Shown piece after piece: positions 1,899 to 14,741 of a DNA stretch of 22,761 nt. The notes beneath the pieces are model-generated. The model did not search any database. It was not told where the DNA came from and saw nothing but the letters and a program-made list of their open reading frames with translations. Each line of letters begins with the position of its first letter. Position 1 is the stretch's first letter. This stretch comes from a virus. The position numbers were made by a program, and so were the translations under genes. The stretch covers positions 1 to 22,761 of IMG/VR virus record IMGVR_UViG_3300037502_000158; one strand, 5' to 3'.

Positions 1899-1912
1899 GT
1901 TTGTCCTATAAT
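1884..1912 (+). promoter_or_regulatory. candidate sigma70-type promoter for the HNH gene
   Basis: TTGCGG at 1884-1889 (3 of 6 matches to TTGACA) is separated by exactly 17 bp from a perfect TATAAT at 1907-1912. Expected start sites are purines at about 1918-1920, some 20 nt before the HNH start codon. The -35 element is the loop of the terminator, so termination and re-initiation share the same bases. The call rests on sequence match only. Confidence 0.6.
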
Positions 1913-1935
1913 TCTCTGTGTCAAAGACAGGAGAA
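1912..1935 (+). promoter_or_regulatory. hairpin masking the Shine-Dalgarno of the first HNH gene
   Basis: TTCTCT (1912-1917) and TGTC (1919-1922) pair with GACA (1926-1929) and GGAGAA (1930-1935, with one T-G wobble). The loop is AAA and G1918 is bulged, giving 10 base pairs in total. The 3' arm contains the ribosome site AGGAG (1929-1933) of the HNH gene at 1940. RNA starting at 1918-1920 from the TATAAT box would lack most of the 5' arm and leave the ribosome site open. Confidence 0.6.
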
Positions 1936-1939
1936 AGAA

Positions 1940-2542
1940 ATGGACACTACAAACCTACCCAAAACCCGCAAAGAAGCTCAAGACTCAGGAGCTAAGTATT
2001 ACTTCACAGGCGAACCCTGTAAGTACGGTCACATAGCGCCACGCAAAACAAAAGGTTCTTGCGTTGAATGCCTAAAGGTTGAATGGGAAAAAGCCAATAC
2101 CACTAGGGCAGATTACTTCCGCGAGTACAACAAATCAGAAGCCGGGCAGAAAGCTAAGCGCAAGTACTACGAAGCTAACAAAGATGAGGTTATTGCTAAG
2201 GCCGCTAACAGATCAACCGAGGAGAGACGAAGGTCAAGGAACAAGCACAAGAAGGCAAACCCAGAGCTATACAAAGAACTGGTTAATGCGCGTCGTCGTC
2301 GATTCAGGCAAGCAACTCCCAAATGGTTGGATGAAAAGCAACGCATGGAAATACGTCTGAAGTATCGCCTTGCCTTGGAAATGAGTAAGGCTACTGGAAT
2401 TAAATACGCGGTAGATCACGAGATACCATTGTTTGGTGAAAACGTATGCGGCCTACACGTCCCATGGAATTTGCGTGTAATCACACAAGAGGAAAACCTC
2501 TTGAAGTCCAATAAGCTGATTGACTCCCACCCTAATAACTGA
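1940..2542 (+). CDS. free-standing HNH homing endonuclease
   Basis: 200 residues from the ATG at 1940, chosen because AGGAG (1929-1933) precedes it at a good distance; an in-frame ATG at 1901 has no ribosome site. The N-terminal zinc-binding-like motif has Cys27, His31, Cys41 and Cys44 (PCKYGH, then CVEC). A long, very basic helical middle follows (residues 45-135), suited to DNA contact. The C-terminal HNH nuclease core has Asp159-His160, His173 and Asn177, with the motifs VDHEIPLFG and HVPWNLRVITQEENLLKSNK. Such genes spread by cutting phage genomes that lack them. It sits between the capsid terminator and the next structural gene, with its own promoter, as expected for an inserted selfish element. 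The exact target site cannot be read from this sequence. Confidence 0.9.
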   Translation: MDTTNLPKTRKEAQDSGAKYYFTGEPCKYGHIAPRKTKGSCVECLKVEWEKANTTRADYFREYNKSEAGQKAKRKYYEANKDEVIAKAANRSTEERRRSRNKHKKANPELYKELVNARRRRFRQATPKWLDEKQRMEIRLKYRLALEMSKATGIKYAVDHEIPLFGENVCGLHVPWNLRVITQEENLLKSNKLIDSHPNN

Positions 2543-2633: not shown

Positions 2634-3173
2634 ATGGCTATTTCTACCTTTGACGGTCCAGTCCGTTCCCTGGGCGGTATTTATCAACAAGGTCCGTCCA
2701 CGATCGTTGAGATCACTTCCAGTACCACATTAAATCCCGTGGCCCATGCAGGCCGGATTATTTCTGTTGGCGGCACGCTTGCAGCTAACGTGGTTCTGAC
2801 ACTTCCAGCAATCAATACCTCGGCTAACGTATCCTCGTCTGGCCCTGGCAATGACCCCAATACGGCTAACAACGAAGGCGTTGTTTATACGATCTGGGTT
2901 CCCACCACGATTGCTACGTCTTCCCTGAAGATTGGTACCGATGGCACTGACAAGTTTGTTGGTACGATCCTTGGTGTTGATACTGATTCTTCCAATGCGC
3001 TTGTGGCTTACACGGCCGGTGCTTCCAATGACTTCATCAACTTCAACGGTACAACGACCGGTGGCGTTGCTGGCTCATGGGTCCAGATCGTTGCCATCGC
3101 AGCTAACAAGTACATGGTAAACGGTATTGCACTTGGCTCTGGTTCGGTTGCTACACCCTTTGCTGATTCCTAA
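2634..3173 (+). CDS. structural protein of unknown function, beta-rich
   Basis: 179 residues, rich in Thr, Ser, Ala, Gly and Val, with no charged clusters, signal peptide or membrane helix. The segment VAHAGRIISVGGTLAANVVL followed by LPAINT suggests a small beta-fold domain. The ATG at 2634 is preceded by GGAG (2625-2628) at 5 nt. Composition and place between the capsid gene and other virion genes point to a head decoration, head fibre or neck protein. I do not recognise a named family. The 91-bp gap before it carries an inverted repeat that may affect its expression. Coding status is secure; the role is inferred. Confidence 0.75.
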   Translation: MAISTFDGPVRSLGGIYQQGPSTIVEITSSTTLNPVAHAGRIISVGGTLAANVVLTLPAINTSANVSSSGPGNDPNTANNEGVVYTIWVPTTIATSSLKIGTDGTDKFVGTILGVDTDSSNALVAYTAGASNDFINFNGTTTGGVAGSWVQIVAIAANKYMVNGIALGSGSVATPFADS

Positions 3174-3185
3174 TAGGAGTGCATC

Positions 3186-3704
3186 ATGGGGATGCAAACC
3201 GATGTTAAGCAGGCCCACTTAAACGGTAGCGGTTTTTTTGTAAAAGGCCGCAACCGTGTAAAAGGCATTTCAATGGTTGGGGCAGGTTCTGCGGACGGGA
3301 CGTTAGTTTTATTTGACGCAGCCGCAGCACCAGTTACTGCAAGTGTTACCTATGCTCGGTCAGGTACAACCGTGACGGTGTCAAAAACGGCACACGGTCT
3401 TACCAGTGGGGCTGTCATAGGTATTCACTTTGCCTCGGGAACTGGTGGTACTGCAACAGATGGAACGTATACCGTGACTCGGATAGATGCCGATAGCTTC
3501 TCGGTGACGGACATCAATAGCGGGACGATTACCGGAACCCCGGCGGCGGTGTACGCAGTGGGCCGTTGGCTTATGACCTATGAAGTAGATTCCACAGATG
3601 TGTTTCAGAATGCGCCATTTATTCCGGGCGAAGGTGTATTAGCCAACACAGCGGTCTATGGCTATATGTCTAACATCGCTGCGGCACAGATCTATTATGG
3701 CTAA
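3186..3704 (+). CDS. structural protein with an inserted Ig-like module
   Basis: 172 residues. The N-terminus (MGMQTDVKQAHLNGSGFFVK) and C-terminus (RWLMTYEVDSTDVFQN...) look like one domain interrupted by a small beta module at about residues 53-115. That module has the pattern TAHGLTSGAVIGIHF, then DGTYTVTRIDADSFSV, found as a movable insert in many phage structural proteins. The ATG at 3186 has AGGAG (3175-3179) at 6 nt, and the gene follows the previous stop by 12 bp. It probably sits on the particle surface or at the neck. No enzyme motif is visible. A related insert occurs in the nozzle-like gene at 21186. Confidence 0.75.
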   Translation: MGMQTDVKQAHLNGSGFFVKGRNRVKGISMVGAGSADGTLVLFDAAAAPVTASVTYARSGTTVTVSKTAHGLTSGAVIGIHFASGTGGTATDGTYTVTRIDADSFSVTDINSGTITGTPAAVYAVGRWLMTYEVDSTDVFQNAPFIPGEGVLANTAVYGYMSNIAAAQIYYG

Positions 3705-12657: not shown

Positions 12658-13085
12658 TGGCGATCATTCAAACCCTGACGACGAGCTTCAAGGTTGAAGT
12701 GGCGCAGGGTCTTCATAACTTCACCACGGGAACGGGCGATGTCTTTAAGCTGGCCCTATACACCGCCAACGCGGATCTCGGTGCCTCAACGACTGCTTAC
12801 ACGACGGCAGGTGAAGTCAGTGGAACCAATTATTCCGCTGGAGGAATTATCCTCACAAACATCACGCCAAGCTTTCAAGGAACTACTTCTTATTGGTCTT
12901 TCCAAAATGCGACATTCACAAACGTCACGTTAACGACCAATGGGGCGCTTATTTACAACTCAACTAATGGAAATCGTTCCGTTGCAGTATTAAACTTCGG
13001 GGTTAATATCACTAAAACCGCACAGGACTTGGTGATTACATTCCCGGTTAATGATGCTACCAACGCCGTTTTAAGGATTGCATGA
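12657..13085 (+). CDS. small structural protein, beta-rich
   Basis: 142 residues. Begins MAIIQTLTTSFKVEVAQGLH and contains FKLALYTANADLGASTTAYT, a pattern I recognise from conserved small phage virion proteins encoded near tail and fibre genes. It is mostly beta-type with many Thr and Asn and no membrane segment. The start overlaps the previous stop by one base, and its TGA overlaps the next ATG. I cannot name a function; tail knob or fibre attachment are possible from position. Confidence 0.78.
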   Translation: MAIIQTLTTSFKVEVAQGLHNFTTGTGDVFKLALYTANADLGASTTAYTTAGEVSGTNYSAGGIILTNITPSFQGTTSYWSFQNATFTNVTLTTNGALIYNSTNGNRSVAVLNFGVNITKTAQDLVITFPVNDATNAVLRIA

Positions 13086-13657
13086 TGGAAAAAGCAAAAG
13101 CGGGTGATCAAGTTTCTAGCGGGTTAGCCGCTAAAACATCGTGGGGTGAATCGGCTGTGGCCTGCGGTAGGTACTATGCAGAGTGCCATGACAAGGATGG
13201 CAACCTCAAGTGGACTGCTGAGGGTGATAACTTGGTGGTTAATGCTGGTCTACAGTATATGGCTGGAACTGCCTTGGTTAGTACAGCGCAGATCACAACG
13301 TGGTATGTTGGTCTTTATGGCGCAGCGGCAAGTAATACACCGGCAGCATCAGATACGATGGCTTCTCATGCAGGCTGGACAGAGATTGATTGCTATAGTG
13401 ATGCAACAAGACCAGCGGCAACATTTGCTGCGGCGACCAATGCGAATCCTTCGGTAGTCACAAACACCTCCAATAAAGCCGTGTTTAATATTGACGCAAC
13501 GGCAACGGTTGGCGGGGCGTTTCTTACAAGTAATAACACCATCCTTGGAACGACAGGCACGTTATTCTCGGCAGCAGACTTCCAATCGCCGGGGGATCGG
13601 TCTGTGGTATCCGGGGACGTCATTAGCTGCACTTATGAGTTCCGTCTTTCTGCATAA
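13082..13657 (+). CDS. structural protein with WYVGLYG motif
   Basis: 191 residues. Two in-frame ATGs (13082 and 13085) lie just after AAGGA (13073-13077); the first makes an ATGA overlap. The central region reads NLVVNAGLQYMAGTALV, then ITTWYVGLYGAAASNTPAA and MASHAGWTEIDCYSD, a conserved pattern in short-tailed phages and prophages. The C-terminal half is beta-rich (NKAVFNIDATATVGGAFLTS, DVISCTYEFRLSA). It resembles the preceding gene product in style (both mention a small tail or fibre-base role) but not in sequence. Function unknown; a tail or fibre-base protein is likely. Confidence 0.78.
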   Translation: MMEKAKAGDQVSSGLAAKTSWGESAVACGRYYAECHDKDGNLKWTAEGDNLVVNAGLQYMAGTALVSTAQITTWYVGLYGAAASNTPAASDTMASHAGWTEIDCYSDATRPAATFAAATNANPSVVTNTSNKAVFNIDATATVGGAFLTSNNTILGTTGTLFSAADFQSPGDRSVVSGDVISCTYEFRLSA

Positions 13658-13668
13658 ATTTATGGTAC

Positions 13669-13691
13669 TCTCCTTAAACTTTTTAAGGAGA
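13669..13691 (+). promoter_or_regulatory. hairpin masking the Shine-Dalgarno of the second HNH gene
   Basis: TCTCCTTAAA (13669-13678) and TTTAAGGAGA (13682-13691) form a perfect 10-bp stem with a CTT loop. The 3' arm holds the ribosome site AAGGAG (13685-13690) for the ATG at 13696. A -10-like TATGGT (13661-13666) lies just upstream of the 5' arm, but I find no good -35. No T-run follows, so this is not a terminator. Confidence 0.75.
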
Positions 13692-13695
13692 TGCT

Positions 13696-14268
13696 ATGGA
13701 TATGCAACTAAACAGGGTATGGCGCGGCATGCATAATCGTTGTTATAACGAGAACCAAAAGTCCTATAAGAACTATGGGGCCAAGGGCATCCGCGTCTGC
13801 GAAAGATGGCACGGCAAGCAGGGGTTTAAAAATTTCCTTGCTGACATGGGTGAAAGACCCGAAAAAGGAACCATTGAGAGGATCAACTCAAATGGCAACT
13901 ACGAGCCTTCAAACTGCCGATGGGCAACACGACTTGAACAGGCTAACAACAAGTCAAACAATCGGTACATTACGATTGAAGGCGTGACGCAAACCAAATC
14001 GCAGTGGGCCAGACAGTACAACATTGGTGTCGCAATTTTTCATCAAAGGTTGCAAAATGGTATGGAGCCATTGGAGGCTTTGAAAAAGCCAGTGGCAAAA
14101 AGATCAAACTCAACCCTTTCTGATGATGACGTAAGAGAAATTCGTGACACCTATCCACTGATGACCGCAAGCGCACTTGGGGTAAAGTTTGGCGTTAGCA
14201 AAAAAGCGATCTTGAACATACTTCATAATAGGACGTATCAAGATGTGCAACAGAGTAAGGTGTCATGA
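13696..14268 (+). CDS. free-standing HNH endonuclease with C-terminal HTH
   Basis: 190 residues. The N-terminal nuclease domain has the hallmark pattern VWRGMHNRCYN, YGAKGIRVCERWHG, FLADMGERP, then the HNH core TIERINSNGNYEPSNCRWAT (59-78) and QANNKSNN. Two DNA-binding stretches follow: SQWARQYNIG-VAIFHQRLQ (102-120) and a helix-turn-helix-like segment LSDDDVREIRDTYPLMTASA, then LGVKFGVSKKAILNIL (141-176). It is of a different HNH type from the gene at 1940. It probably homes into phages lacking it. Ribosome site AAGGAG lies 5 nt before the ATG but inside a stable hairpin. Its TGA overlaps the ATG of the next gene. Confidence 0.92.
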   Translation: MDMQLNRVWRGMHNRCYNENQKSYKNYGAKGIRVCERWHGKQGFKNFLADMGERPEKGTIERINSNGNYEPSNCRWATRLEQANNKSNNRYITIEGVTQTKSQWARQYNIGVAIFHQRLQNGMEPLEALKKPVAKRSNSTLSDDDVREIRDTYPLMTASALGVKFGVSKKAILNILHNRTYQDVQQSKVS

Positions 14269-14741
14269 GTGAAGGCGGCTGGGGATCAGGTGCATGGGGA
14301 TTTGGGCCTTGGGGCAGGTCAGCTTATGATCGTTCTGTTCTTGAACTGGCTTCAGGAAACGACACAGTTGCTGTGCCGGGGGTTGAGTATCCAGCATCTA
14401 TTCTTGAAGCCGCATCGGGCAATGACCTCATGGCAGGCAACCCATACTTTGCCACCGATATTATTGAAGCAGCCAGTGGTACAGATACAATTGCAGGGGC
14501 TGCTAATTTTGGTGGAACGATTATTGAAACATCTGCTGGTGCAGACAGTATTTCAGGTTCAGCAAGCTTTATTAGTTCTGTGCTTGAGAATGCGGCTGGT
14601 AATGACCTTGTTTCAATCAACGTGGAAATGCAGCTATCTGTACTTGAAAACGCATCTGGTGCTGATAGCATCTCTGCTGTATTGTTCTGGGAGCAGATCA
14701 ATACTTCTCAAACCGCTAATTGGACTGAGATAACGACATGA
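14265..14741 (+). CDS. fibre-type protein with six short tandem repeats
   Basis: 158 residues. The N-terminus carries a Trp-Gly motif, GGWGSGAWGFGPWG. The rest is six repeats of 20-23 residues that start with a strand and a loop: SVLELASGNDTV, SILEAASGNDLM, DIIEAASGTDTI, TIIETSAGADSI, SVLENAAGNDLV and SVLENASGADSI. The invariant positions are a Glu in the strand, a small residue run, and Asp after Gly-x. Each unit probably adds one rung to a trimeric or solenoid fibre. The end, FWEQINTSQTANWTEITT, is distinct and may be the attachment end. The ATG overlaps the stop of the HNH gene, and its own TGA overlaps the next ATG. Confidence 0.8.
   Translation: MSEGGWGSGAWGFGPWGRSAYDRSVLELASGNDTVAVPGVEYPASILEAASGNDLMAGNPYFATDIIEAASGTDTIAGAANFGGTIIETSAGADSISGSASFISSVLENAAGNDLVSINVEMQLSVLENASGADSISAVLFWEQINTSQTANWTEITT
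14326..14678 (+). repeat. six-unit tandem coding repeat
   Basis: Each unit encodes a [SDT][VI][LI]Exx[SA]xGxD[TLS] core of about 12 residues plus a variable link of about 8-11. The units are diverged at the DNA level, so this is an old, selected protein repeat and not a recent expansion. Confidence 0.8.

Follow-up and report, generated by a model that had tools for sequence, protein, structure and literature searches.

Why would a nuclease gene lodged among the virion genes of a phage carry a leader in which its own ribosome-binding site is folded away? The window analysed here is the whole of a 22,761-base virus record and holds a cluster of structural genes, including those for the major capsid protein, an SU10-type adaptor and tail-associated proteins. 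The gene in question follows a virion-associated gene of this record, and its product falls within the HNH family (phrog_3377, E 7e-52), the comparison with solved structures having returned one chance match; it is probably a free-standing HNH endonuclease of the homing type. The reading that we favour, with a probability of about 0.68, is that the leader hairpin is a selected RNA element of a mobile HNH cassette, which would lock the Shine-Dalgarno sequence (SD) on read-through RNA and leave it free on RNA started from a promoter. Such a hairpin would probably act as a built-in off-switch against transcripts that merely pass through the gene.

The hairpin occupies the 38 bases between the upstream stop codon and the HNH ATG at 13696 (Table 1). 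The original prediction had described AAGGAG as masked by a perfect 10-bp stem that closes on a CTT loop, and this is borne out to the base, the structure spanning 13669-13691 with the SD inside. Folding of 13655-13735 gives -24.7 kcal/mol (z -3.3), equalled by 1 of 200 shuffled sequences, and adds some ten pairs to the stem, so that the helix reaches about 20 bp in all (13658-13701), with one bulged C at 13668 and several G-U pairs, and the start codon is paired as well. On the long transcript, both the SD and the ATG are predicted to be sequestered. An intrinsic terminator at this place was considered and rejected, as no terminator-like site was found under the criterion of a GC-rich stem followed by a T run. 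The sole Rfam match was a sub-threshold microRNA adjacent to the hairpin, a near-identity search against named phages gave no match, and an exact search with a 20-nt piece of the leader matched only three known relatives.

Table 1. Features of the window at and around its two HNH genes
Feature	Position	Strand	Basis or remark
Leader hairpin of the other HNH gene	1912..1935	+	sequence, comparison
Other HNH gene, endonuclease VII-like, phrog_1035	1940..2542	+	family match
Upstream virion-associated gene, phrog_8123-like	13082..13657	+	directly upstream in 56/56 clade copies
85-nt block identical to L004 (-62 to +23 of ATG)	13634..13718	+	surrounding DNA 84% identical
Cassette, approximate extent, missing from HNH-less relatives	13650..14262	+	alignment to L195, L190, L225
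Lower stem, 5' strand, ATTTATGGTA	13658..13667	+	RNAfold
TATGGT, counterpart by position of the clade -10; weak, without -35	13661..13666	+	promoter scoring
5' arm of the perfect 10-bp stem, TCTCCTTAAA	13669..13678	+	sequence, RNAfold
CTT loop	13679..13681	+	sequence, RNAfold
3' arm of the perfect stem, TTTAAGGAGA	13682..13691	+	sequence, RNAfold
Shine-Dalgarno AAGGAG, wholly within the 3' arm	13685..13690	+	unpaired probability 0.00
Lower stem, 3' strand, TGCTATGGAT, ATG included	13692..13701	+	RNAfold
HNH endonuclease gene, 190 aa, phrog_3377	13696..14268	+	dN/dS 0.075 vs L004
Next structural gene; ATGA overlap with the HNH stop	14265..14741	+	gene calls, relatives

About 55 copies of the HNH clade were recovered from viral contigs in two protein searches. 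Their leaders comprise 35 distinct sequences, each of which folds into a hairpin with the SD in its 3' arm. Leaders at least 85% alike were merged into 25 for stem scoring, and a stem scoring at least 8 covers the SD in 22 of them, against 1/305 other genes of the same contigs (Fisher p 5e-30). As the stems are the best found in each leader, the fair baseline is given by these neighbours and by leaders whose 5' half was shuffled, 0.8% of which reach the same score. The comparison with neighbouring genes is the one that the original prediction had called for, and it came out in favour of a true excess before these HNH genes. The SD has an unpaired probability below 0.1 in 18 of 20 clade leaders, a slightly stricter gene set than that of the stem count, and in 21 of the 305 neighbours (p 6.5e-17). 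The arms differ from one relative to another (ACACCTTCA/TGGAGGTGT, GTATACTC/GAGTATAC, GATACACCC/GGGTGTATC and AGAATGCTTCT/AGGAGCATTCT for example), with several pair types at most stem positions outside the SD, while their complementarity is kept: 118 of 122 pairs outside the SD are Watson-Crick, against 50 +/- 4.8 (maximum 66 in 2000 trials) when the 3' bases are re-dealt among leaders, these counts and the preceding ones being not fully independent since the clade leaders share descent. An excess of G-U over A-C pairs would favour pairing in RNA rather than in DNA; outside the SD there are 4 of the former and 1 of the latter, few informative pairs whose asymmetry is confounded by the SD.

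Chance, or the ordinary structure of ribosome-binding sites in phage DNA, could produce some masked sites, as the 21 neighbours with paired SDs attest, the window gene at 3186 among them; contradicted as it is by the enrichment, the covariation and the conservation of the leader, this explanation is of practically negligible probability. The gene at 3186 does not encode an endonuclease, and its SD (TAGGAG) sits in a small perfect hairpin (3150-3190). SD-masking hairpins of such size can also act as regulated switches, and the one described here could open with temperature or on binding of a protein or small RNA. Neither loop nor stem keeps a fixed sequence from one clade member to the next, leaving no conserved binding site, and the placement of a promoter is a simpler route to a free SD; we hold regulated opening to be highly improbable. 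The hairpin has its limits in the wider family: the HNH endonucleases of PHROG 3377 and 374 belong to the same protein family, and the distant ones mostly go without it, a strong SD stem being found in 1/16 distant relatives and such a hairpin in few cultured-phage HNH genes. The proposal that selection silences homing endonucleases in this manner is supported for the present clade by the enrichment, the covariation and the promoters of the relatives, but does not extend to a general rule. A 13-bp hairpin covers the ribosome site of a distant HNH gene in L024 (2740-2790).

The hairpin follows the gene in its distribution among genomes. The same gene lies upstream in 56/56 copies, whereas the gene downstream of the HNH gene differs among them. 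About 40 phages whose upstream protein is 78-99% identical have neither the HNH gene nor the hairpin, and in most of these empty alleles the stop of the upstream gene and the following ATG share bases (ATGAGTGAAGG). The HNH gene is present or absent at one site in otherwise alike genomes, and the bounds of the insertion, about 13650 to 14262, imply that hairpin and gene arrived together. At the other end of the cassette (14257-14268), the 3' end of the HNH gene supplies an AAGG SD and an ATGA overlap to the next structural gene, this stop-start overlap replacing the one of the empty alleles. With the hairpin as part of a free-standing cassette that has entered behind one and the same virion gene, read-through RNA of the structural operon has both arms and would lock the SD (in the window, the ATG too), and the ribosomes of the late mRNA would make no nuclease.

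The relatives suggest how the lock could be bypassed. Most of them have a sigma-70-like site whose -10 lies at -29 to -37 and abuts or overlaps the 5' arm (TAGGAT and TATACT, with a -35 at 15-18 bases, are examples of adjoining hexamers), with -35 hexamers such as TTGACG, GTGACA, TTGTCA or TTGACA at a spacing of 16-18 bases, as in GTGACA-N17-TATAGT, TTGACG-N17-TACACT and TTGACA-N16-TAGAGT. The median promoter score is 9.0 in the clade, whereas 601 other genes have a median of 3.6 (p 9e-16), on an approximate E. coli sigma-70 matrix used for ranking only. In L128, L150 and L155, the -35 TTGACG is spelled by the codons of a conserved LDA at the C-terminus of the upstream virion protein, as seen in many relatives. 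The T4 late promoter TATAAATA adjoins the 5' arm in none of the 35 distinct leaders, and a search of 10 contigs, not all of them necessarily complete, gave no phage sigma factor (PF04542). The original prediction held that an RNA started about 7 bases past the -10 would lack part of the 5' arm. With such a start the median SD accessibility of the 25 leaders is predicted to rise from 0.00 to 0.69 (above 0.5 in 17 of them, 0.5 or less in 8), and that of the window RNA from 0.00 to 0.46-0.70 for starts at 13673-13675. In most of the clade, the promoter at the 5' arm would thereby produce a short, translatable RNA lacking this arm, and its host type suggests that the HNH gene would probably be expressed before, or independently of, late operon transcription.

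The overlap of the repeat with the -10 in many relatives also brings to mind an operator at the DNA level, covering the promoter and recognised by another repressor or by the nuclease itself, in the manner of I-TevI, which is an autorepressor (PMC2988022). Pfam, which gave no significant match for the window HNH protein, gave weak HTH matches in its relatives that would suit this role. A conserved binding sequence would be expected of an operator, but the arms differ across the clade, conservation there bearing on their complementarity and on the overlap with the SD, and an operator would not need the SD within every copy. We consider it very unlikely.

The window copy itself is less clearly equipped than most of its relatives. 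TATGGT, originally proposed as a -10, does end 2 bases 5' of the hairpin arm, but it scores 3.9 on the sigma-70 matrix, a value typical of ordinary upstream regions (it is equalled or exceeded upstream of 43% of ordinary genes), and no -35 was found at 15-19 bases from it. With its own -10 degenerate, the promoter step is doubtful in this copy, where a promoter role is suggested by the relatives only, and expression of the window HNH gene may be very low or reliant on an unrecognised start. The window leader nevertheless appears to be under constraint despite its weak-looking promoter, because none of its 38 bases is changed with respect to L004, against 25 of 59 fourfold sites in the HNH gene; the 85-base run identical between the two is more than twice as long as the next longest run. 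The alternative to constraint is a recent swap of a short stretch between the window phage and L004.

The lack of a convincing promoter in the window copy would suit a gate by translational coupling, in which ribosomes terminating on the upstream gene open the hairpin and thereby couple a low output of HNH protein to that gene, the HNH gene itself having no promoter. Nearly all copies have their upstream stop 35-43 bases 5' of the HNH start, and the lower stem of the window starts right after the TAA, so that a stopping ribosome would melt it. The core stem, however, lies 11 bases past the stop, near the edge of the ribosome footprint, and would mostly stay closed; the gap is of 63-68 bases in some leaders, and the strong promoters of most relatives would be left unexplained. 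Coupling is in our opinion unlikely, and a selected lock on read-through RNA remains the preferred reading.

The original prediction extended hairpin masking to both HNH genes of the window. At the other one, the layout of promoter and hairpin is as it had been described, TTGCGG-N17-TATAAT at 1884-1912 being followed by the hairpin at 1912-1935. Its family associates a promoter with a shorter repeat, of which one common form, ACCTGTGTCGTAACACAGGAG, precedes genes of the phrog_1035-type HNH family in 30/30 exact matches in viral contigs. The hairpin of this family is weaker, with strong stems in 4/39 and a milder SD masking (8/39), so that masking stands for the first clade and only in an attenuated form for the second, which is placed behind a native terminator. 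A terminator lies just upstream of 41/49 HNH genes of this other family, against 0/24 in the first clade and 1/462 other genes. That the HNH gene brought it in was rejected, since the terminator is also present in relatives without the gene, at 49/66 such loci, and it is attributed to the capsid gene. In the window, within 1877-1912, the -35-like TTGCGG (1884-1889) belongs to the terminator hairpin of the capsid gene. The contrast between the two families would fit with a strong lock being needed only where read-through occurs. More tentatively, as a possibility rather than an expectation, the sigma-70-like promoter and the SD hairpin may constitute a self-contained switch giving early expression and silence on late mRNA, the reverse of the T4 timing, with the insertion context setting the need for a lock: a strong hairpin where the operon is unterminated, a weak one behind a native terminator.

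The region that follows this other gene contains a distinct conserved intergenic element (2552-2630), 5' of the gene at 2634 and also present in relatives without the HNH gene. Compared in L314, L321, L322, L347, L375, L387 and L391, it displays interleaved covarying helices, CTAGG/CCTAG with CTCATACCG/CGGTATGAG and then TTAGTAG/CTACTA, in an apparent pseudoknot ending just 5' of the SD, with a constant core around GCAGAC. It has no match in Rfam, and an automatic helix search recovered the pairing in only part of the relatives.

The type of mechanism proposed here is already known, since the same layout is described in reviews (PMC2988022, PMC3014915) for the hairpin-regulated leaders of I-TevI, I-TevII, I-TevIII, segB and Aeh1 mobE in T4-type phages. 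There too, the gene lies within a foreign transcription unit, its SD is in a stem on the long RNA, and the promoter is sited to give an RNA without the 5' arm, a likeness carried here mainly by the relatives and weak in the window; mobE and segB are free-standing like the window gene, and mobE is also an HNH gene. The T4 genes e, soc and 49 have SD hairpins as well (PMC3014915), with the SD or start codon in an RNA helix on longer transcripts and, for gene e, late promoters that remove the 5' part, but they are resident phage genes and not mobile cassettes. The window phage differs from the T4 type by its SU10-like virion genes, and the hexamers of the clade are sigma-70-like in place of T4 late promoters. 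As long transcript there is that of the structural operon instead of the early or middle RNA of T4-type systems, and the timing is probably reversed. Unlike in the T4-type leaders, the hairpin is a constant of the whole clade with a freely changing sequence. The phage group, the promoter type, the clade-wide covariation and the probable reversal of timing are the new aspects of the present case.

Most known cases of homing endonucleases controlled by a hairpin come from T4-type phages, where T4 late promoters are used. The near-constancy of the same layout in a large clade of non-T4 phage contigs, whose stems covary and whose promoters are of the host type, suggests a recurring need to silence a selfish nuclease on the mRNA of its host operon, for which the many natural variants and their matched empty sites provide direct test material.
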